NCBI GenBank assembly: GCA_003164895.1
Contig: PLUL01000015.1
Span: forward strand, 1-64,000
Origin: Bacteroidota bacterium
GTDB taxonomy: Bacteria > Bacteroidota > Bacteroidia > Palsa-948
Reading direction: 5' to 3'
DNA: 64,000 bases
Each line of letters opens with the position of its first letter. Position 1 is the first letter of the stretch. Under the pieces are notes generated by a model that had not been told where the DNA came from, did not search any database, and saw only the letters and a list, made by a program, of their open reading frames with translations. Shown here one piece after another: positions 4,623 to 53,237 of the stretch. The position numbers were made by a program, and so were the translations under genes.

Positions 4623-4697
4623 AAATATTACTATCATAAAGAAATACGAGAGATTTGGGAGTTATTTGTATGTTTGTGAACGCACTTGCGGTTCAAT

Positions 4698-5072
4698 ATG
4701 AAAACAGAAAACTCAAAAATTAAATGGCTCGATCAACCGGAAGAACACAATTATCCGGCAGCATTATCATATCTCTGTTTAATATACAATGAAGAAAAAG
4801 CATCTCTGTTAATCAAACATTTGAGAAAAGCTCCAATCACTCAATTCAAAGCAAAAGATATTTTCAGGGCTTCCCGTCTTTCGCTTTTGGGTGTCAGCAA
4901 CCAACATGTCAAGAAAAATTTAAAGAAAATTACAAATGGCAAACACCTGTCCCCAATTCTTTTGGTGAGAGATGAGAAGAACGGAAATGTAATCATAGCT
5001 GACGGTTACCACCGCATGTGCGCTGTTTATGAATACGACGAAGATATTATTCTGCCTTGCAAAATAGCTTGA
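4698..5072 (+). CDS. Small ParB/sulfiredoxin-like domain protein
   Basis: 124 residues from the ATG at 4698 (a TTG four codons upstream is less likely). The C-terminal half reads LSPILLVRD ... VIIADGYHRMCAVYEY, which resembles the ParB N-terminal/sulfiredoxin fold, where a DGxHR motif forms the nucleotide-binding loop. The N-terminal half has no recognised motif. No signal peptide or membrane segment is visible. It sits 75 bases after htpG on the same strand with no clear promoter, so it may be read from the htpG transcript. ParB partners (parA, parS sites) are absent, so this is not a partition protein. The biochemical role is unknown; a nucleotide- or DNA-processing role is only a guess. 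Confidence 0.7.
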   Translation: MKTENSKIKWLDQPEEHNYPAALSYLCLIYNEEKASLLIKHLRKAPITQFKAKDIFRASRLSLLGVSNQHVKKNLKKITNGKHLSPILLVRDEKNGNVIIADGYHRMCAVYEYDEDIILPCKIA

Positions 5073-5207: not shown

Positions 5208-6386
5208 ATGGCAGCCGATCTTTTTCAATCACCCGATTATTTTAATGTTGATGACCTCTTAACTGACGAGCATAAATTAGTGCGCGATACCACTCGTGCT
5301 TTCGTTAAAAAAGAAGTTTCTCCTATCATAGAGGATTTTGCACAGCGTGCTGAATTTCCGAAACAATTAATAAAAGGACTTGGAGAAATTGGTGCATTTG
5401 GTCCGTTTGTTCCGCAGGAATACGGTGGATCAGGATTGGATTATATTTCTTATGGGTTGATGATGCAGGAACTGGAACGCGGTGATTCCGGAATTCGTTC
5501 CACAGCTTCTGTACAAGGTTCATTGGTGATGTTTCCAATTTTCACTTTTGGAAGTGAAGCGCAGAAGAAAAAATATCTTCCAAAACTTGCCAGCGGTGAA
5601 TGGATGGGATGCTTTGGTCTGACAGAACCCGATCATGGTTCTAATCCAAACGGAATGATAACTAACTTCAAAGACAAGGGCGACCATGTTATTCTGAACG
5701 GAGCCAAGATGTGGATTTCCAATGCGCCATTTGCCGACATCGCCGTGGTTTGGGCGAAGAACGAACAAGGAGAAGTTCATGGTTTGATTGTTGAACGCGG
5801 AATGAAAGGATTCACCACTCCTGAAACGCATAATAAATGGTCATTGCGCGCTAGTGCTACCGGAGAATTAGTTTTTGATAATGTAAAAGTTCCGAAAGAA
5901 AATATTTTGCCTGGCGTGAAAGGATTGAAAGGTCCTCTTAACTGTCTTAACTCTGCACGCTTCGGAATTGCCTGGGGAGTAGTTGGTGCAGCAATGGATT
6001 GTTACGATTCGGCTCTTCGTTATTCTAAGCAAAGGATTCAATTTGGAAAACCGATTGCAGCTTTTCAATTGACACAGAAAAAATTAGCAGAGATGATTAC
6101 GGAAATTACCAAAGCGCAATTGCTTTGCTGGCGACTGGGTGTTTTAAGAAACGAACACCGTGCAACTCCTCAGCAAATTTCCATGGCAAAAAGAAATAAT
6201 GTGAACATGGCAATTCAAATTGCTCGTGAAGCAAGACAAATTCATGGAGCAATGGGAATTACCGGAGAATACCCCATTATGCGCCATAGCATGAATTTGG
6301 AATCAGTTATTACTTATGAAGGAACGCACGATATTCACCTGCTCATCACCGGATATGATGTTACAGGAATAAGTGCGTTTGAATAA
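5208..6386 (+). CDS. gcdH: Glutaryl-CoA dehydrogenase family acyl-CoA dehydrogenase
   Basis: 392 residues, FAD-dependent acyl-CoA dehydrogenase. It follows the glutaryl-CoA dehydrogenase pattern rather than the general family: TYEGTHDIHLLI carries the catalytic base Glu371, and DSGIRSTASVQ has Arg97 at the place of the arginine that binds the glutarate carboxylate in the human enzyme. FGLTEPDHGSNP and WISNAPFADI form the FAD/substrate region, and RQIHGAMGITGEY is the C-terminal helical motif. Known role of the family: oxidative decarboxylation of glutaryl-CoA to crotonyl-CoA in lysine and tryptophan breakdown, passing electrons to ETF. No other gene of that pathway is in view. Start ATG at 5208. 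Confidence 0.92.
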   Translation: MAADLFQSPDYFNVDDLLTDEHKLVRDTTRAFVKKEVSPIIEDFAQRAEFPKQLIKGLGEIGAFGPFVPQEYGGSGLDYISYGLMMQELERGDSGIRSTASVQGSLVMFPIFTFGSEAQKKKYLPKLASGEWMGCFGLTEPDHGSNPNGMITNFKDKGDHVILNGAKMWISNAPFADIAVVWAKNEQGEVHGLIVERGMKGFTTPETHNKWSLRASATGELVFDNVKVPKENILPGVKGLKGPLNCLNSARFGIAWGVVGAAMDCYDSALRYSKQRIQFGKPIAAFQLTQKKLAEMITEITKAQLLCWRLGVLRNEHRATPQQISMAKRNNVNMAIQIAREARQIHGAMGITGEYPIMRHSMNLESVITYEGTHDIHLLITGYDVTGISAFE

Positions 6387-6395
6387 TACTCATTA

Positions 6396-8573
6396 ATGAA
6401 GAATGCAGTTGTTTTATTTTTTGCGTTACTGATTTCTTTTTATTCCTTCTCTCAAAAAGGAAAAGAATACTTTCTTGTTGATTCTGTGAAGTATGATTCG
6501 CTCGCGCTGAATGACCGGCACACGTTGGATTCACTTCTCCCTTTGTATCACAAAGCAACGCATGATACTGGGCGTTTAAGAATATTAGAAACGTTGGATG
6601 AAGATTTAAATACAGAATCTCTCTGGCCAAAGTATAATCAACTCATGTATGAAGAATCCAAAAAACATTTACAGAATTCTTCTTCCATTAGTGCGAAGGA
6701 AATAAAAGCATACAAAAAATATTTTGCCACCTCACTGCAAAACTTTGGGTATGCGCAAAATTTGCTGGGGAATATTCCTAAAGCATTAGCGTATTATGAT
6801 ACCTGTATGAAAATCGAGGAGGAAGTTGGCGACAAACACGGCATGTCAAGTACATTAAATAATACCGGAATTATTTTTAGCTCACAAGGCAATATCGGCA
6901 AAGCGCTTGAAAATTATTTTCGAGCGTTAAAATTAGATGAAGAAACAAATGACAAAATCGGCATGGCATATCCGCTCGATAACATTTCAAGTGTTTATCT
7001 TCAGCAAGGCGACACGGCAAAAGGAATTGAATACATGGAAAAAAGTTTGAAGTTGAGAGAAGAGACAGGCGATAAAAGAGGATGGGCTTATTCGTTAAGC
7101 AGAGTGGGTTCTTTGTACAGCAAAATGGGAAACAAGGAAAAAGCACTTGCTGATTTTAAAAAATCTGTCTCCTTATGGAAAGAGGTTGGAGAAAAGCGCG
7201 GTTTGGCAATTGCTTATCAGAATATAGGTTCAACCTATTTATCCAAAGCAAGTTCTCAAAATTCCGGTCGTGATTCCATCTATACAATTGCGCTTGAATA
7301 TTTCCAAAAGAGTTTAAAACTGAATGAGGAAATAAAAGATGAGTTTGGCTTAGCGCAAATATTTAATAGTATTGGAAATTGTTATTTCGATCAGAATAAT
7401 ATTTCATTGGCACAGCAATATGGAAATCAGGCATTGAAAATAGGAAGGGAATTAAAATCTCCTAACTCGATAAGTAATGCAGCTCAATTATTGCTGAAGG
7501 TTTACCGTCAGCAGCAAAACTGGAAGCAAGCATTGGAAATGCACGAATTGTATATTCGAATGCGCGACAGTTTAGTCAATAAAGAAACGCAAAAATCTAC
7601 CTTTAAACAGCAAGCAAAATATGAATATGACAAGCAACAAGCAGTAAAAGATGCCGAACATCAAAAAGAACTTGCCATTGCCGAAGAAGAAAAAAAACGT
7701 CAGAAGATTATTACTTATTCTATTGGTTTGGGTTTGTTAATGGTTATTTTGTTTTCAATTTTTATTTTCAACCGTCTTCAGATAACACGAAAACAAAAAC
7801 TGATTATTGATCAGAAAAATAAAAGCATTACAGACAGCATCAATTATGCAAAACGCATTCAAGATTCCATTCTTCCTTCAAAAACAGAGTTGTCAAAACA
7901 TTTTTCCGACTATTTCATCTTCTTTCGGCCACGAGATATTGTTAGCGGAGATTTTTACTGGTTATCCGACCAAGATGGGAAAACAATTCTTGCAATTGCT
8001 GATTGTACCGGACATGGAGTTCCAGGTGCATTCATGAGCATGATAGGAAATACCTTGCTGAATGAAATAGTGAACGAACAAAAAATATTTCAGCCGGCAG
8101 AAATTCTGAACCATCTTAACGAAGGAATTGTGAATGCGCTTCATCAGGAATCGCGTACTCAGGATGACGGAATGGATATTTCAATCTGCTTGTTTGATAA
8201 AGCAAACCATAAAATCACTTTTGCCGGAGCAAATCATGCGATGTATATTACTCAGCAAGAAAAGATTCAGGAAATCAAAGGAGATATTTATTCCATCGGA
8301 AGTATGTTTGGAAAAAAGGATGTGGCTTTTACTCAGAAAGAAATTTTCATACAAAAAGATTCAACTCTCTTTTTCTTTACCGACGGATTTCCCGATCAGG
8401 TGGGTGGAACAAAGAATAGAAAATTTCTTACAAGACATTTAGAAACATTATTGCTCCGTATTTCCACGTTGGATTTCAAGGAGCAGGAACAGGAAATAAT
8501 CAAATCATTCGACCTGTGGAAAGAATCCTACGCACAACTTGACGATGTATTGCTCGCAGGTATAAGAATCTAA
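6396..8573 (+). CDS. TPR sensor with SpoIIE/PP2C-type serine phosphatase domain (SiaA-like)
   Basis: 725 residues. A signal peptide (ending SFYSFSQ, about residue 20) is followed by five or more TPR units (about residues 110-390; NNTGIIFSSQGNIGKALENY and similar), a charged coiled coil, one membrane segment (about 438-461, IGLGLLMVILFSIF), and a cytoplasmic SpoIIE-type PP2M phosphatase domain (about 500-725). Metal-binding acidic residues are present in SGDFYW, ADCTGHGVPGAF, DDGMDIS, FTDGFPDQ and QLDDVLL. The topology puts the TPRs in the periplasm and the phosphatase inside. It ends by a 4-base overlap with the convergent SiaC-like gene, whose family is the known substrate of such phosphatases. 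No SiaB-type kinase gene is in the window. It starts 9 bases after the dehydrogenase gene. Confidence 0.9.
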   Translation: MKNAVVLFFALLISFYSFSQKGKEYFLVDSVKYDSLALNDRHTLDSLLPLYHKATHDTGRLRILETLDEDLNTESLWPKYNQLMYEESKKHLQNSSSISAKEIKAYKKYFATSLQNFGYAQNLLGNIPKALAYYDTCMKIEEEVGDKHGMSSTLNNTGIIFSSQGNIGKALENYFRALKLDEETNDKIGMAYPLDNISSVYLQQGDTAKGIEYMEKSLKLREETGDKRGWAYSLSRVGSLYSKMGNKEKALADFKKSVSLWKEVGEKRGLAIAYQNIGSTYLSKASSQNSGRDSIYTIALEYFQKSLKLNEEIKDEFGLAQIFNSIGNCYFDQNNISLAQQYGNQALKIGRELKSPNSISNAAQLLLKVYRQQQNWKQALEMHELYIRMRDSLVNKETQKSTFKQQAKYEYDKQQAVKDAEHQKELAIAEEEKKRQKIITYSIGLGLLMVILFSIFIFNRLQITRKQKLIIDQKNKSITDSINYAKRIQDSILPSKTELSKHFSDYFIFFRPRDIVSGDFYWLSDQDGKTILAIADCTGHGVPGAFMSMIGNTLLNEIVNEQKIFQPAEILNHLNEGIVNALHQESRTQDDGMDISICLFDKANHKITFAGANHAMYITQQEKIQEIKGDIYSIGSMFGKKDVAFTQKEIFIQKDSTLFFFTDGFPDQVGGTKNRKFLTRHLETLLLRISTLDFKEQEQEIIKSFDLWKESYAQLDDVLLAGIRI

Positions 8574-8950
8574 ACGGAATGCGGAATAAATTCAAACGGC
8601 AGGGTACTCATTTTTAAATATCGTTCCCCGGATGCCAGCATGTCGGTATCCTCCTGATCATAGTGCCATTTAATCTTTGTGCTGCTCTTTTTAGCTATCT
8701 CTTCCAATAATGAAATTAGTCGGAATACTTGTTTTGAAGAAGAAGTATTAAAATATTGAAAACGAAAATGAAATACAGTTTCGGCATTTGGAGTTTCAGC
8801 ATATTTATTCATCCACTCAAAAATGGGAGCGTAAAAATGCATTGCATCTTCGGGATGTGACCATCCTGAAATTTCAAAAATTCCTTTTTCAATATCAAAT
8901 GTTACAGCCGGAGTTATATTCTCGTGGGCTTCAATAATAAGTGGATTCAT
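8570..8950 (-). CDS. SiaC-family (DUF1987) regulatory phosphoprotein
   Basis: 126 residues from the ATG at 8950, which overlaps the stop of the upstream TPR gene as TAATG; this suggests translational coupling and excludes the TTG start three codons earlier. The protein matches the DUF1987/SiaC family: TPAVTFDIEKGIFEISG at the N-terminus, FRFQYFNTSSSKQVF in the middle, KIKWHYDQED near the end. With this start the Thr of FNTSSSK is residue 69, next to the position of the regulatory Thr68 of Pseudomonas SiaC. In that organism SiaC is phosphorylated by SiaB, dephosphorylated by the PP2C protein SiaA, and activates the diguanylate cyclase SiaD. Here the adjacent phosphatase is the obvious partner (inference); kinase and output protein are not seen. 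Confidence 0.88.
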   Translation of the reverse strand: MNPLIIEAHENITPAVTFDIEKGIFEISGWSHPEDAMHFYAPIFEWMNKYAETPNAETVFHFRFQYFNTSSSKQVFRLISLLEEIAKKSSTKIKWHYDQEDTDMLASGERYLKMSTLPFEFIPHSV

Positions 8951-9615
8951 TATTTGCAATTTTTTTTAATTGTGTCGTATATTTTGGCGTAACCTAATTC
9001 ACCTGCTTTGCTCCAATCAATGCACGCTCCTTTTTTGTCTCCCGATTCAAATTTTGCAGATCCTCGCTGGGAATATGCCTGAAAATCTTTTTGATTCATC
9101 TTTATCACTTCAGAAAAATCAGCGATGGAAGATTTGTAATCTTTCAAAATAAGATAAGACAGCGCACGGTTAAAATATGCATCCGAAAATTTTTTATCAA
9201 GTTTAATTGCTTTAGAAAAATCTTCAATCGAGCCATAATAATCTTCCAGCTTGGCTTTGATTCTTCCTCTGCCTTTATATGCTTTTGCATTTGCAGAATC
9301 AAGTTCAATTGCTTTGTTGTAATTTTCCATTGCTTTTTTGTCTTCTTTCAGGATGAAGGAAACTTCTCCCAAATAATAACGCGCATCAGAGTTTTTGGGA
9401 TTAAGTTCCACCGCTTTATTGAGTTCCACTTCCGCTCCTTCATAATTACCTGCATTGAATTGTGTAATTCCACTTTTCAAAGAACCTACAGAATCCAATG
9501 CCTGAGAAAAAGTAACAGTAGGCAGTAGGCAGTAGGCAAAAGAAAATAAACAAAAAAACAATCGAGCAATCGAATGTCGAATCGAAACAAAAACAATCGG
9601 TGTAATCTTGTTCAT
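8950..9615 (-). CDS. Exported TPR-repeat protein
   Basis: 221 residues from the ATG at 9615; a longer start would run into the upstream DUF3127 gene. An unusual N-terminus (about 38 residues) ends in a signal-peptide-like AYCLLPTVTFSQ. Four to five TPR units follow (for example GNYEGAEVELNKAVELNPKN and DYYGSIEDFSKAIKLDKK). Codons 11-19 and 27-34 are made of two different short tandem repeats. The gene ends TAATG into the SiaC-like gene. TPRs are protein-binding scaffolds; the partner is unknown, but coupling to a SiaC-like protein next to a TPR phosphatase suggests a shared pathway. Confidence 0.8.
   Translation of the reverse strand: MNKITPIVFVSIRHSIARLFFCLFSFAYCLLPTVTFSQALDSVGSLKSGITQFNAGNYEGAEVELNKAVELNPKNSDARYYLGEVSFILKEDKKAMENYNKAIELDSANAKAYKGRGRIKAKLEDYYGSIEDFSKAIKLDKKFSDAYFNRALSYLILKDYKSSIADFSEVIKMNQKDFQAYSQRGSAKFESGDKKGACIDWSKAGELGYAKIYDTIKKNCK
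9516..9584. repeat. Two short degenerate tandem repeats inside a signal-peptide region
   Basis: CAGTAGG occurs three times in tandem at 9516-9536. A second repeat based on AATCG/GTCGAATCG lies at 9559-9584. A third phrase (TGTAATCTTG ... TGTGTAATCTGTG) follows at about 9600-9635 around the start codon. All are read in frame by the TPR gene and build most of its signal sequence. Confidence 0.75.
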
Positions 9616-9637
9616 TTCAATCTGTGTAATCTGTGAA

Positions 9638-10003
9638 TTAAAATGGCAAATCATCATCGGGTGTTGGAACTAAAGTTTCGTTGCTGAAGTTTGGATCCTG
9701 AACACTTGTTGAACCGCTACCTGCTTTTGGCAGATCAATTTTGAAAACATCCAGCGAATTGAAAAATTTAATTTCTCCTTGCGGATTTTTCCACTCTCTC
9801 CCTTTCAATAGAAAATGAACGGTAATTTCATCTCCAACTTTTGCGTTTTCAATCAGCGAAGTTCTATCCTGAGTGAGTTGAAAAAGAATAGTTTGCGGAT
9901 ACGATTGAGCATTATCCGTAAGAACAAATTCTCTTTTCTTGAATTTCTCCGAAACTTTTACTTCGGCATTTTTTACTTTTAAGATTCCTGTGTAAGTTAA
10001 CAT
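9638..10003 (-). CDS. DUF3127 protein with SSB-like acidic C-terminus
   Basis: 121 residues. Matches the DUF3127 family, small Bacteroidota proteins with an OB-fold-like core: MLTYTGILKVKNAEVKVSEKF, REFVLTD, VGDEITVHFLLKGREW, FFNSLDVFKID. A low-complexity linker follows, then a terminal PDDDLPF. That tail is nearly the DDDIPF tip by which bacterial single-stranded DNA-binding protein recruits its partners. Together with the OB-like core this suggests nucleic-acid binding, but no function is established here. It lies 18 bases downstream of the flavin reductase gene on the same strand and probably shares its transcript. Confidence 0.82.
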   Translation of the reverse strand: MLTYTGILKVKNAEVKVSEKFKKREFVLTDNAQSYPQTILFQLTQDRTSLIENAKVGDEITVHFLLKGREWKNPQGEIKFFNSLDVFKIDLPKAGSGSTSVQDPNFSNETLVPTPDDDLPF

Positions 10004-10021
10004 GTGTATATAAAATTAAAA

Positions 10022-10888
10022 TTAATGTTCAAGCGAAAGTAATGTTTTCCATCCATCTTCCACCTGTCCTTCGTCCAAAAGTTTTTTGGCAATAATATGA
10101 ATTTCTTTTTCTCCTAACTCATTTTTAAGGAACTGAGTTTTATAGGCAATCACATCTTCCTTATTCGGAAGTTTTGCCACATTGCCAAGTTGACCTAAAT
10201 TATTTCCGGTAAGTACAGAGCTATTCCTAATCTTTTCAGGAATAGCATCCACGCCAATGCCCAGAGGAGAAGACGGTTTTGTTACTTCAAAAAGAGCATT
10301 GCCCGAAGCACGCACATACCAATTCCCTCCAAGCCGTCCCACCAAATCCAATTTATTCGGATCAATATGTTTATGCTCGTTGAGAACAGATTCTCTAATA
10401 TGGATAAGTATTATTTCACAGATAACAAGGTTTCCGGCAGCGGCATTTTTACCAAGCTCTATCACTTCTTTCACCTTGCATTCCATTTGCACGGGCGATT
10501 CTTTTACACGGAAAGGTTTCACCAATTCCGATGGTAGCATGGTGAATCCGGCTTTTACAAATTCATTTGTGCCTTTAGGAAATTCACTGCTCGAAAGCGA
10601 GGTTTGATGAACCATGTCATAATTCACCATGTTTATTACCGCCTCGGGAATTTCCAACACATTGTCGTGCGTATTTTTTGTTGAATTGGTTCTGCCACTG
10701 CGAGCAGGAGAAAATATTGCAATAGGCGGATTGGTGCTGAAAATATTAAAGAAGCTAAATGGGCTTAGATTAGGATTTCCGTTTTTATCTATCGTACTGA
10801 CAAACGCCACTGGTCTTGGCGCAATGACGTTGGACAAATATCCCTGCAAAGCAGGAATAGAAAGTTCTTTTGGATTAAGCGTTAACAT
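10022..10888 (-). CDS. Flavin reductase (DIM6/NTAB) family protein
   Basis: 288 residues from the ATG at 10888. The FMN-binding split-barrel flavin-reductase fold is shown by IAPRPVAFVSTIDKNGNPNLSPFSFFN near the N-terminus, PPIAIFSP, DTMHN-like spacing in KNTHDNVLEIPEAVINMV, and LDLVGRLGGNWYVR. The C-terminal 80 residues are an extension common to Bacteroidota members. The family binds FMN and reduces flavins or related acceptors with NAD(P)H; the physiological substrate is unknown. A strong promoter match ends only 7 bases before the start codon, so the mRNA may be almost leaderless. The DUF3127, TPR and SiaC-like genes follow on the same strand. Confidence 0.88.
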   Translation of the reverse strand: MLTLNPKELSIPALQGYLSNVIAPRPVAFVSTIDKNGNPNLSPFSFFNIFSTNPPIAIFSPARSGRTNSTKNTHDNVLEIPEAVINMVNYDMVHQTSLSSSEFPKGTNEFVKAGFTMLPSELVKPFRVKESPVQMECKVKEVIELGKNAAAGNLVICEIILIHIRESVLNEHKHIDPNKLDLVGRLGGNWYVRASGNALFEVTKPSSPLGIGVDAIPEKIRNSSVLTGNNLGQLGNVAKLPNKEDVIAYKTQFLKNELGEKEIHIIAKKLLDEGQVEDGWKTLLSLEH

Positions 10889-10894
10889 GAGGTG

Positions 10895-10924
10895 CAAAGA
10901 TAAAAATAATAGAAAGAATCCAAA
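10895..10924 (-). promoter_or_regulatory. Bacteroidota-type promoter of the flavin reductase gene
   Basis: On the minus strand, TTTG (10924-10921), 18 bases, then TATCTTTG (10902-10895): an exact match to TTTG-N18-TAnnTTTG. The ATG begins 7 bases downstream of the -7 box, which would leave a leader of only a few bases. Confidence 0.65.
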
Positions 10925-11042
10925 AAGAGAGATGTTTATTCCACAAGATATTCGCCGTTTGTGTATCAGTCAATAGATCAAATCCGTTTATTATGAATTC
11001 TCAAGTTTATTTGTTTGCTGAAAAATCCATTTTAAAAGATAA

Positions 11043-12275
11043 TTATCTGGCGGATATTTTTCCCTTTTCTATCGGGAGTCGCACAGTAAAAGTTGTTCCT
11101 TCATTCAGTGTACTGGCAAACGTTACGTTTCCGTTCATCAGTTCAACATATTTTTTTACGATGTTCAAACCCAATCCTGTTCCCTGAATGTTGGTAGAAT
11201 TTTTCGCCCTGAAAAATCGTTCGAACAAATGCTTTTGATCTTCTTCAGGAATTCCTATTCCGCCGTCAACAATACTGATGAGTAACATTCTACCTGATAA
11301 ATGAGTTTTAAATTCAATATTTTTTCCTGCTGGAGAATATTTAATGGCATTGGAAAGCAGATTAAGTATAACATTTTTCAACAGTTGCCTGTCAAATGCC
11401 ACAGTTGAATTTTTACCGTGGTGAGAAAAAATAATTTGTTGATTTTCTTTGGTGATGTTTTTCATTTCATCCACGATGGATTGCGAGAATGAAACTATTT
11501 CAAACTCTTCCGGATTATTTCTCACCAATCCTTCCTCTAATTTTCCGAGCGAGAGAAAATCATTTAGTATTTCGGTGAGATTTGAAATGGAAGATTTTAT
11601 TCTGGTGATATGTTTCTGACGTTTCTCGGCATCTTCCGGCTTATCATATCTCGCAATCAGCGAAGTGGAAGATAAAATAGTTGCCAGCGGTGTTCGAAAT
11701 TCATGCGAAGCGGTAGTAACAAATCTCGATTTTAATTCGTTCAATTCTCGTTCTTTTGAAAGTGCTTTTTGTAAATCCTGCTGTGATTTTGCCAGTTCAT
11801 TGATAGTGCTGGCAAGCGCTTCTGTCTTTTGTTCAACTCTTTTTTCCAGCGTATTCGAATAGTGCGAAAGCTCCTGATTGGCTTTGCGGATGACATCTTC
11901 CTGTTTTTTTCTTTCAGTAATGTCGGTCAAAAAAGCAATGGCAAATTTTTTGCCATGCGCAACATAATAACTCAAACTCACTTCAACAGGAAATTCCTTG
12001 CCGTCCTTTCTCTGTCCAAAAAGCGACATGCCTTGCCCCATCGGTCGGGCAAGAGGTGCATGAAAATAACTATCGCGACGAGAAACATGGGTCTTTTCAA
12101 AACGGGAGGGAATCAGTATTTCAATTTTATTTCCAATTAATTCGGAATGTAGGTAGCCAAAAAGTTTTTCCACGCGTGGGTTGACCAACACAATTTCACC
12201 TTTCTGGTTAGCAACAACAATTCCTTCCGTTGCATATTGAAACAACGCATCCAGCATTTCGGTATCTTTCTCCAT
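11043..12275 (-). CDS. PAS-domain sensor histidine kinase (cytoplasmic)
   Basis: 410 residues, no membrane segment. An N-terminal PAS domain (about 5-125: ATEGIVVANQKGEIVLVNP ... VSLSYYVAHGKKFAIAFLTDIT) is followed by a coiled-coil linker (125-185), a HisKA domain with phospho-acceptor His191 (SHEFRTPL), and a HATPase_c domain with NLLSNAIKYSP (N box), DGGIGIPEED (G1), LFERFFRA (F box) and GTGLGLNIVKKY (G2). The PAS plus HisKA order is that of stand-alone kinases that sense a soluble ligand, oxygen or redox state; no haem or flavin ligand can be named from sequence. No response regulator is in the window, so it is an orphan here. A TAnnTTTG box lies just upstream. Confidence 0.93.
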   Translation of the reverse strand: MEKDTEMLDALFQYATEGIVVANQKGEIVLVNPRVEKLFGYLHSELIGNKIEILIPSRFEKTHVSRRDSYFHAPLARPMGQGMSLFGQRKDGKEFPVEVSLSYYVAHGKKFAIAFLTDITERKKQEDVIRKANQELSHYSNTLEKRVEQKTEALASTINELAKSQQDLQKALSKERELNELKSRFVTTASHEFRTPLATILSSTSLIARYDKPEDAEKRQKHITRIKSSISNLTEILNDFLSLGKLEEGLVRNNPEEFEIVSFSQSIVDEMKNITKENQQIIFSHHGKNSTVAFDRQLLKNVILNLLSNAIKYSPAGKNIEFKTHLSGRMLLISIVDGGIGIPEEDQKHLFERFFRAKNSTNIQGTGLGLNIVKKYVELMNGNVTFASTLNEGTTFTVRLPIEKGKISAR

Positions 12276-12301
12276 ACTTGTGTAATCGTTTTGACTTCAC
12301 A

Positions 12302-12309
12302 CAAATATA
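12302..12309 (-). promoter_or_regulatory. Candidate -7 box for the PAS kinase gene
   Basis: TATATTTG on the minus strand, an exact TAnnTTTG match 27 bases upstream of the kinase ATG and inside the 42-base gap after the OmpH-like gene. No clear -33 box. Confidence 0.4.
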
Positions 12310-12317
12310 ATTCAGAA

Positions 12318-12968
12318 CTATTTTCCTTTGCCTGAATTATATTCGTTGTTCAATCCTGCAAGCACTTGAGTGGTAACATCAAGATTATTGTCAACTCCCA
12401 ACACGCCGCCGCCGCTTTTTGTGTATGCAAGTACGCAGTAATAACCATGTCCCTTGTTAAATCGTTCGAGGTAATCATAAATTTTTTTCTGAACTTCCGA
12501 ATTTGTTTTTTCCACATCGCCAAGAACCTTATCCTGATTTTGCTGCATCTCTACAATTTCATCACGTCTTTTTTGCAGCGATGCTTCTATTCCAGTAGCT
12601 TGCTCTTTTGTATATCCGCCTGCACCGGCTTTTTCCATATAATCGTTGTAATCTTTTTGAAATGCAGCTGCTTTTTCCTGATAGGATTTTTGGTAATTTG
12701 CCACACGAACTTCACCTGCAGATTTTATTTTTTTCGCGTATTCGTATTTTGCAAAAATGGAATCAGCATTCACAAAAACAATGCGCACATCTTTTGGCGC
12801 GTTATTAATCACCGGAACGATGACAGGAGTTTGCAAAGATTTTCCGGTTGAATCCATTGCGCTGATTGTTGCAGACGAAGATTTACTTCCTCCTGAAAAT
12901 TGTTTGTAGTAAAGAAATCCTACTGCGAAAATTAAAACGATGTTTAATCCCAAAGAAATGTTTTTCAC
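12318..12968 (-). CDS. OmpH/Skp-family periplasmic chaperone-like protein
   Basis: 216 residues, starting at GTG (12968). One N-terminal hydrophobic segment (NISLGLNIVLIFAVGFLYY, no clear cleavage site) anchors or exports it. The body is the OmpH/Skp pattern: VRIVFVNADSIFAKYEYAKK, then a long charged coiled coil (about residues 75-150), then a short beta tail with GHGYYCVLAYTKSGGGVLGVD. Skp-type proteins are trimeric holdases for outer-membrane proteins in the periplasm. It follows gldB and gldC on the same strand after a 122-base gap containing repeats. The membrane anchor instead of a cleaved signal is common in Bacteroidota members. Confidence 0.87.
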   Translation of the reverse strand: MKNISLGLNIVLIFAVGFLYYKQFSGGSKSSSATISAMDSTGKSLQTPVIVPVINNAPKDVRIVFVNADSIFAKYEYAKKIKSAGEVRVANYQKSYQEKAAAFQKDYNDYMEKAGAGGYTKEQATGIEASLQKRRDEIVEMQQNQDKVLGDVEKTNSEVQKKIYDYLERFNKGHGYYCVLAYTKSGGGVLGVDNNLDVTTQVLAGLNNEYNSGKGK

Positions 12969-13060
12969 GATAATTTGTTTTTTAGTTTGGCAAAGGTAAA
13001 ATAAAGTTATTCCGAGATTACACAGATTTTAGAAAGATTACGCCAATTACTTGATTGCTC

Positions 13061-13095
13061 ATCGGTGAAATCATTGTATTATCGGTGTAATCATT
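13061..13095. repeat. 15-base direct repeat between gldC and the OmpH-like gene
   Basis: ATCGGTGAAATCATT (13061-13075) and ATCGGTGTAATCATT (13081-13095) differ at one base. The second copy contains the stop region of gldC. A second degenerate phrase (GATTACACAGATTTTAGAAAGATTACG) lies at about 13017-13042. They belong to the same class of short degenerate repeats seen elsewhere in the window. Confidence 0.7.
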
Positions 13096-13420
13096 TTTTT
13101 TTTAATAAATTCATTTTATCTGCAAAGTGTGCGCAAAAATCTTTCAGGTCTTCAGAAATTTTTTCTTCGCCGGTCGCTCGCTTGAATGTATCCGCCATGG
13201 ATAACAATGTTTGATGAAAAAAAACTTTCATTTCATCCGCAAGCATCTCTTTTGTCCAAAGGTCAATCTTCAGCGTATTACTTTCTTTGGCATCCCACAG
13301 GGAAATTAAAATGCTTTTGCAAACACTTTTTTCATTCATGCTGCTTGCTGCCCAGTCAATGGAAAGAGGAATATTATTTTCATCAAGCGTTACGGTAAAT
13401 TTTATTTCTGATTTTTTCAT
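13091..13420 (-). CDS. gldC: Gliding motility protein GldC
   Basis: 109 residues, the usual length for GldC. Diagnostic stretches are MKKSEIKFTVTLDENNIP, ILISLWDAKESNTLKIDLW, TKEMLADEMKVFFHQTLLS, and DFCAHFADKM. No signal peptide: GldC is cytoplasmic. It lies 18 bases after gldB, the order known from Flavobacterium johnsoniae, where gldB-gldC are neighbours of nadE, as here. GldC supports gliding/T9SS function; its molecular activity is not known. The presence of a T9SS substrate at the start of the window fits. Confidence 0.93.
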   Translation of the reverse strand: MKKSEIKFTVTLDENNIPLSIDWAASSMNEKSVCKSILISLWDAKESNTLKIDLWTKEMLADEMKVFFHQTLLSMADTFKRATGEEKISEDLKDFCAHFADKMNLLKKK

Positions 13421-51942: not shown

Positions 51943-52578
51943 CTATAAGTCGTATTTATAGATCTTGTGCATGTCTTCATTACTGCGCACTGATATTTCC
52001 AAATCTTTTATTAATCCGTTTGAAATATCATCCACCCATCCGTGAACATGCGGATGTTTTTGAAGTTTCCATGCATTCTGAATGATAGAGGTTTTGCAAA
52101 CGTTTCGGACTTGTTCAATAACATTCAACTCGACCAAACGCCTTTCGCGTACTGTGTGATCGCTGATGCCATCTAATTCTTTTTGATGAAGTAAATAAAC
52201 GTCTTTAATATTTCTAAGCCAGTTATCAAGCAAGCCAAACGACATATTGCTCATGGCTGCTTTGATACCACCGCATCCGTAATGTCCGCATACGATCACA
52301 TGCGTAACTCCAAGAATGTTCACTGAATAATCAAGCACGCTGAGTAAGTTCACATCCGTATGAATGACCATGTTGGCAATGTTGCGCTGAACGAATAATT
52401 CGCCCGGATGGGTTTTCGTCACTTCATTCGGAGGAACACGACTGTCGGAACAGCCGATCCATAGAGCGAGAGGATGCTGACTTTGCGATAGCATTTTAAA
52501 ATAATTCGAGTCTTCCGAATTTTTTTGCGCAACCCACTCTTTGTTCCCACGCAAAAGTTTTTGGTCGAATTTTTCCAT
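51943..52578 (-). CDS. can: Beta-class carbonic anhydrase (copy 2)
   Basis: 211 residues. Zinc ligands Cys43 (in CSDSR, with the Asp45-Arg47 dyad), His99 and Cys102 (GHYGCGG); NIANMV and LDYSVNILGVTHVIV are family blocks. Hydrates CO2 to bicarbonate in the cytosol. It is a tandem duplicate of the next gene (same length, same motif positions, many identical stretches such as NWLRNIKDVY and HPHVHGWV versus RPHVHGWV). It lies 13 bases before thiE in a thiamin operon. Divergence is too great for a recent copy. Confidence 0.95.
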   Translation of the reverse strand: MEKFDQKLLRGNKEWVAQKNSEDSNYFKMLSQSQHPLALWIGCSDSRVPPNEVTKTHPGELFVQRNIANMVIHTDVNLLSVLDYSVNILGVTHVIVCGHYGCGGIKAAMSNMSFGLLDNWLRNIKDVYLLHQKELDGISDHTVRERRLVELNVIEQVRNVCKTSIIQNAWKLQKHPHVHGWVDDISNGLIKDLEISVRSNEDMHKIYKYDL

Positions 52579-52598
52579 GAAAATTATTTTTGGTTCAG

Positions 52599-53237
52599 TT
52601 AGAAATCTATCTTGTAGATATTGTGCATTTCCGATTGATCACGCACCGTTACATTCAGGTCTTTTATCAGTCCGTGTGCAACATCGTACACCCATCCATG
52701 CACATGCGGACGTTTGTGAGCTTCCCAGGCGCTTTGAATGATAGATGTTTTGCAGAGATTATAAACTTGTTCGAAAATATTTAGCTCGGTTAATCTTCTG
52801 TCACGCAATACAGGATCTTTTATTTCATCCAGTTCTTTGTTGTGCAGACGATACACGTCTTTAATATTTCTCAGCCAATTATCTATTACACCGCCAAAAT
52901 GCTTGTGGCTCATCGCTGCCTGAATCCCTCCGCAGCCGTAATGTCCGCACACAATTACATGTTTCACTTCAAGAATGTTCACAGCAAAATCGAGCACGCT
53001 CAGCATGTTGGTATCGGTATGCACTACCATGTTTGCAATGTTGCGGTGCACAAATACTTCACCTGATTTGGTATTTGTAATTTCGTTTGCCGGAACACGG
53101 CTGTCAGAACAACCGATCCATAACACAGGAGGGTTTTGTCCCTTTGCTAATTCTTTGAAGAAGTTAGGATTTTCCTTGAGTTTTTTTGCAACCCAATCCT
53201 TGTTACCCTGAAGAAGACTTTCGTATAATTTTTCCAT
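52599..53237 (-). CDS. can: Beta-class carbonic anhydrase (copy 1)
   Basis: 212 residues with the same zinc set, Cys43, Asp45, Arg47, His99, Cys102, and the same layout as its neighbour; 20 bases separate the two genes. It follows thiD by 2 bases, so it must be read from the thiamin transcript unless an internal promoter exists. Copy number and placement suggest either that bicarbonate supply is tied to thiamin status or that the pair was captured by chance. Enzyme class is certain, the reason for the location is not. Confidence 0.95.
   Translation of the reverse strand: MEKLYESLLQGNKDWVAKKLKENPNFFKELAKGQNPPVLWIGCSDSRVPANEITNTKSGEVFVHRNIANMVVHTDTNMLSVLDFAVNILEVKHVIVCGHYGCGGIQAAMSHKHFGGVIDNWLRNIKDVYRLHNKELDEIKDPVLRDRRLTELNIFEQVYNLCKTSIIQSAWEAHKRPHVHGWVYDVAHGLIKDLNVTVRDQSEMHNIYKIDF

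Follow-up and report, generated by a model that had tools for sequence, protein, structure and literature searches.

In Pseudomonas the Sia partner switch controls the biofilm messenger c-di-GMP (PMC8457831): SiaA and SiaB act on Thr68 of SiaC (PMC7647112), and SiaC binds SiaD by a mechanism described in PMC8457831. The window, by which we mean the whole stretch of 64,000 nucleotides analyzed here (positions 1 to 64,000 of contig PLUL01000015.1 of a Bacteroidota bacterium), carries a SpoIIE-type phosphatase gene converging on a gene for a SiaC-like protein, with neither a SiaB kinase nor a SiaD diguanylate cyclase at the locus. This raises the question whether such a pair belongs to a Sia-type partner switch and, if so, which kinase would serve it and what it would control. 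The reading that we favor, and hold to be fairly probable, is that the locus forms the input side of a Sia-type partner switch, with its kinase in trans and an output other than a GGDEF protein.

The phosphatase and the SiaC-like protein

The phosphatase gene (6396-8573, plus strand, from the ORF list) encodes a 725-aa protein of the TPR-TM-PP2C (SpoIIE/SiaA) type with Pfam matches to TPR and SpoIIE (3e-18 for the latter). Residues 1-20 (6396-6455, plus strand; MKNAVVLFFALLISFYSFSQ) were recognized by eye as a putative signal peptide, and hydropathy revealed a sole transmembrane helix at residues 437-464 (7704-7787, plus strand). The TPR sensor region, located by its Pfam matches at about residues 111-390 (6726-7565, plus strand), is therefore predicted to be periplasmic. 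A linker helix and a cytosolic PP2C domain follow at 7821-8570 (plus strand), as delimited by alignment to SiaA (6k4e) and by the metal-binding Asp motifs SGDFYW, ADCTGHG, FTDG, and DDVLL. Searches against the PDB showed that the PP2C half is closest to the SiaA-PP2C of Pseudomonas aeruginosa (6k4e, 5.7e-34), with the next PDB match at 4e-5; this and the Asp motifs place it among the SiaA-type phosphatases, and bear out the original prediction of a SiaA-like TPR-membrane-SpoIIE phosphatase. The NCBIfam SiaA equivalog model NF038263 matched at 9.8e-52 and 176 bits, below its cut-off of 700, the alignment covering the PP2C half only (residues 471-724). SiaA residues F612 and R652, predicted by docking simulation to contact SiaC-P (PMC7647112), are replaced by Arg and Leu, as read from the 6k4e alignment, a difference that counts against the reading that we favor.

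The converging gene (8570-8950, minus strand), whose start we placed at the ATG at 8950, the listed ORF beginning further upstream at a TTG, encodes a regulatory protein of 126 aa belonging to the SiaC family (PF09345, formerly DUF1987; 8e-37, 126 bits against a curated cut-off of 24.5). It matches the SiaC chains 6kko, 6kkp, and 7e6g in the PDB (3.5e-12), has no transmembrane helix detectable by hydropathy, and scores 70.7 bits with the SiaC equivalog model NF038265, below the cut-off of 150. Thr69 (codon at 8744-8746, minus strand) aligns with the phosphorylated residue of the solved SiaC structures 6kko/6k4f, Thr68, within an identical Y-x-NTSS motif, and is thus predicted to be the phosphorylatable residue that opens helix alpha2. 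Both the family of this protein and the regulatory position of Thr69 had been correctly proposed beforehand. A Thr or Ser occupies the phospho-site in nearly all SiaC domains examined. The genome encodes eight SiaC domains in seven genes; at L041 (G000:C46:22432-23196) two domains stand in tandem, the first with Asn at the phospho-site instead of Thr or Ser, and judged by this residue it may be a fixed, non-switchable half.

Upstream of SiaC and on the same strand lies the gene for a TPR protein (8950-9615, minus strand, ATG at 9615) with Pfam TPR matches and an N-terminal hydrophobic stretch by hydropathy. Its end and the SiaC start are joined by TAATG (8952-8946 on the minus strand reads TAATGAA), indicating translational coupling to SiaC; the exported TPR protein and its coupling were thus rightly called in the original prediction. 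The same gene run continues upstream with a DUF3127 protein (9638-10003, minus strand, PF11325) and a third ORF (10022-10897, minus strand), the product of which we take to be a flavin-reductase-like protein; the synteny of both is kept in the genus. The stop codons of the converging genes overlap by 4 bp (8570-8573), as had been noted. Convergent genes with overlapping stops are commonplace, and the overlap in seven loci measured 4, 4, -2, 0, 0, 11, and 4 bp, its length thus varying among relatives between -2 and +11 bp. A search of the convergent junction revealed no terminator-like site. The antisense control that had been suggested from the overlap is therefore unsupported.

Elsewhere in the window, two adjacent carbonic-anhydrase-like genes, named by eye from their translations, lie in tandem at 51943-53237, and an ORF of ~128 aa without a Pfam match is located at 4686-5072 between HSP90-like and acyl-CoA dehydrogenase-like genes.

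Conservation of the pair

The window SiaC protein was searched against 80 related genomes. Its orthologues in the genus are 52-76% identical, and at the SiaC loci of G001, G002, G003, G004 (two loci), and G006 the convergent neighbor is a SpoIIE phosphatase gene. The upstream order of TPR, DUF3127, and flavin-reductase-like genes is kept at five of these six loci; in the genus mate G005, a window-type SiaC was not found among the matches (best 44% identity). The original prediction stood or fell with the linkage of the two genes in relatives, and they are linked in the genus mates carrying the window-type SiaC, where the convergent arrangement exceeds chance. Outside the genus, the same convergence recurs at L082 of G071, a genome from another family, where the sensor and the gene upstream of SiaC differ and a SiaB lies close by. 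SpoIIE-SiaC pairs with no local SiaB are also found at L169 and L175.

These comparisons bear on the possibility that the two genes are mere neighbors, the phosphatase serving a STAS protein or a different SiaC while the window SiaC is served by another SiaA-type phosphatase. The genome encodes 23 SpoIIE phosphatases, 21 of which are SiaA-type, far outnumbering the seven SiaC genes; convergent genes are not co-transcribed; and at the corresponding place in G001 (L077, G001:C164) a single SiaC gene is met by four convergent TPR-SpoIIE phosphatase genes in tandem. Against these points stand the adjacency kept across the genus, its recurrence in another family, and the pairs at L169 and L175, and we consider the neighbors-only explanation rather unlikely. 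The two genes are a genuine and conserved pair of phosphatase and switch protein of the Sia type. Since 21 of the 23 phosphatases are SiaA-type, several phosphatase inputs per SiaC are likely in this genome.

Two further arrangements were observed around SiaC genes in the survey. At L086 and L119 (G011 and G057), an RNase-R-like gene, named by eye, directly follows SiaC with no SiaB nearby. At L079, L082, and L137, in three genomes, a family of ~500 aa with an [F/L]IxSLxxxEKxYFK-like start lies beside SiaC or its phosphatase; no confident Pfam match was found for it.

SiaB kinases in trans

The original prediction described the kinase as missing, which is right for the window and for the whole of its contig (C78), where no SiaB match was found, but not for the genome, which has three SiaB genes with four domains (PF19788) on contigs C7, C50 (two domains), and C52. 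A SiaB-family kinase is thus available in trans. All three genes are intact, with the catalytic Glu and the ATP-binding motifs kept, and the C7 SiaB passes the cut-off of the NCBIfam SiaB-family model (NF038262). Across the 80 relatives, SiaC was identified in 53 genomes and SiaB in 54, namely those 53 and one genome with a weak SiaB only. The co-occurrence (53/53; Fisher p about 4e-20, with kinship ignored and most genomes from different families) does not assign which kinase serves which SiaC. In the fetched loci, 38 of 102 SiaC domains have no SiaB within two genes, and a SiaC lacking a local kinase is therefore common. In G004, which is 95% complete, the searches gave one SiaB against seven SiaC matches, two being of the window type.

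In the SiaC tree, the genus forms a clade with a support of 0.995, nested inside a clade (0.962) that also contains L081, L082, and L111. As these three sister SiaCs from outside the genus all have SiaB adjacent or nearby, the kinase has apparently left the window locus. Read most simply, the genus has lost or relocated the local kinase, and the window SiaC probably relies on a SiaB encoded elsewhere in the genome.

Alternatively, the SiaC of the window lineage might have ceased to be phosphorylated and work constitutively, or might depend on a kinase other than SiaB. In addition to the lack of a local SiaB, helix alpha3 would fit this, with ASGERY in window-type SiaCs versus EAGEDY in the common SiaB-linked type. 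However, the window clade retains the Thr within Y-x-NT, the sisters L081 and L082, with a similar alpha3 signature, have SiaB nearby, and SiaB is present in every SiaC-bearing genome. We therefore regard such an orphan protein as improbable and retain the switch served in trans.

Absence of a diguanylate cyclase and the proposed switch

GGDEF (PF00990) searches gave no match in this genome, the completeness of which is estimated at about 100%, and none in the 80 relatives (0/80), while 8 of 14 control genomes were positive. No counterpart of the SiaABCD diguanylate cyclase SiaD is thus present; the original prediction, in which SiaD was missing from the window, was correct in this but understated the absence, which extends to the genome and all 80 relatives. 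It follows that c-di-GMP made by a recognizable GGDEF enzyme is not the output of the window locus, and that the locus is not a SiaABCD system with its parts elsewhere. As far as sequence can tell, the switch controls something other than GGDEF-made c-di-GMP. A Pseudomonas-like c-di-GMP switch, with a diguanylate cyclase so divergent that the GGDEF model misses it, could be proposed because the homologous system has that output (PMC8457831); set against the empty searches in 80 genomes with positive controls and the completeness of the assembly, it is very improbable. A class with SiaC and SiaB widespread, expanded, and always together, while GGDEF was found in none of 80 genomes, would mean that a c-di-GMP output does not define the family.

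Compared with SiaABCD of Pseudomonas aeruginosa (PA0172-PA0169), the shared features are the SiaA-type PP2C domain, the Thr (68 or 69) in Y-x-NTSS, and SiaB-type kinases in the genome. The window phosphatase differs in having a periplasmic TPR sensor instead of SiaA's own sensor part, the locus has no kinase, the genome has neither SiaD nor any GGDEF protein, an exported TPR protein is coupled to SiaC, and the genes are convergent, whereas SiaABCD is one operon. The SpoIIAA/SpoIIAB/SpoIIE and RsbV/RsbW/RsbU systems, of the STAS type, likewise combine a PP2C phosphatase, a HATPase-type kinase, and a phosphorylated switch protein, but the window switch protein is SiaC/DUF1987 with no Pfam STAS match, and its locus contains no sigma factor. 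The HsbR/HsbA/HsbD and BgrU/BgrV/BgrW/BgrR switches (discussed in PMC7647112 and PMC8457831) resemble the proposed switch in their output by protein-protein contact outside sigma-factor control, and differ from the window in their STAS switch proteins and diguanylate cyclases. By its parts, the locus is a candidate member of the SiaABC partner switches, with the chemistry at the shared Thr and the binding of a target taken from the Pseudomonas papers.

The mechanism that we propose builds on features read directly from the DNA, namely the parts, their linkage, the phospho-site, the intact kinase genes in trans, and the absence of GGDEF. The TPR phosphatase would sense a periplasmic signal, possibly with help from the exported TPR protein conserved alongside it, and would remove the phosphate from Thr69 of the SiaC-like protein. 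Phosphate would be restored to Thr69 by a SiaB-family kinase from another locus, shared in our proposal, for which the strongly conserved SiaB of the C7 type is the most likely candidate. By analogy with SiaC-SiaD of Pseudomonas, unphosphorylated SiaC would bind a helical or membrane target and phosphorylation would release it; we infer a target of a kind other than GGDEF.

Candidate outputs across the class

DUF1987 proteins have been suggested to modulate adjacent proteins in the eLife SiaC-SiaD study (PMC8457831), the only paper to mention DUF1987 in the open-access collection searched. On this suggestion, the neighbors of SiaC are direct candidates for targets. In order to survey them, 80 further neighborhoods were fetched and the neighbors of 101 SiaC genes clustered. 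The most common neighbors outside the Sia families were an ABC-2 exporter of ~1030 aa with a TerB-like N-terminus and a possible lipoprotein of ~300 aa. The exporter is located within four genes of SiaC for 20 of the 101 genes, in 17 genomes and several arrangements, and is present in 46 of 53 genomes with SiaC versus one of 27 without (p about 1e-13, kinship ignored). Its N-terminus matches TerB weakly (0.0017); an FHA-like, phospho-Thr-binding domain, considered for the same protein, had no Pfam support.

In five other genomes, small coiled-coil proteins, each with a transmembrane helix at the C-terminus, accompany SiaC or its relatives. These share a conserved T-x-VSDRLQ stretch with a SiaD-like SDRxQ motif; in SiaD, Ser82, Asp83, and Gln86 contact SiaC Thr68 and neighboring residues (PMC8457831), and the S-D-x-x-Q spacing of these three residues is that of the coiled-coil stretch. 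In searches of the PDB, SiaD was not matched by a coiled-coil single sequence, the profile, or a profile of the motif stretch, and the likeness is thus a lead by residue matching only. This genome yielded no member of the family, and the best E of the motif profile there, 0.4, was taken as noise.

Judged by these sequence patterns, the ABC-2 exporter with the TerB-like domain and the membrane-anchored coiled-coil proteins are the best class-wide candidate targets, and the exporter link across the class is the most interesting lead. SiaC has so far been studied as a switch of a diguanylate cyclase, and the class-wide pattern offers concrete new targets. Tentatively, and as a possibility to which we give less than even weight, Sia systems across the class may form a many-input network (here 21 phosphatases, seven SiaC, and three SiaB) with no c-di-GMP role, gating the ABC-2/TerB-like exporter or membrane coiled-coils with the SiaD-like motif, the window pair being one arm that competes for shared SiaB. 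In this genome the exporter adjoins the C50 SiaC; neither candidate output adjoins the window SiaC, in keeping with the original prediction, which had left the output open. At L037 (G000:C50), genes for a PAS/GAF phosphatase, a double-domain SiaB, SiaC, the ABC-2 exporter with its TerB-like domain, and the possible lipoprotein lie together as a complete operon at 5225-13313, preceded directly by genes for CheR and a CheB-like protein, the latter identified by eye.
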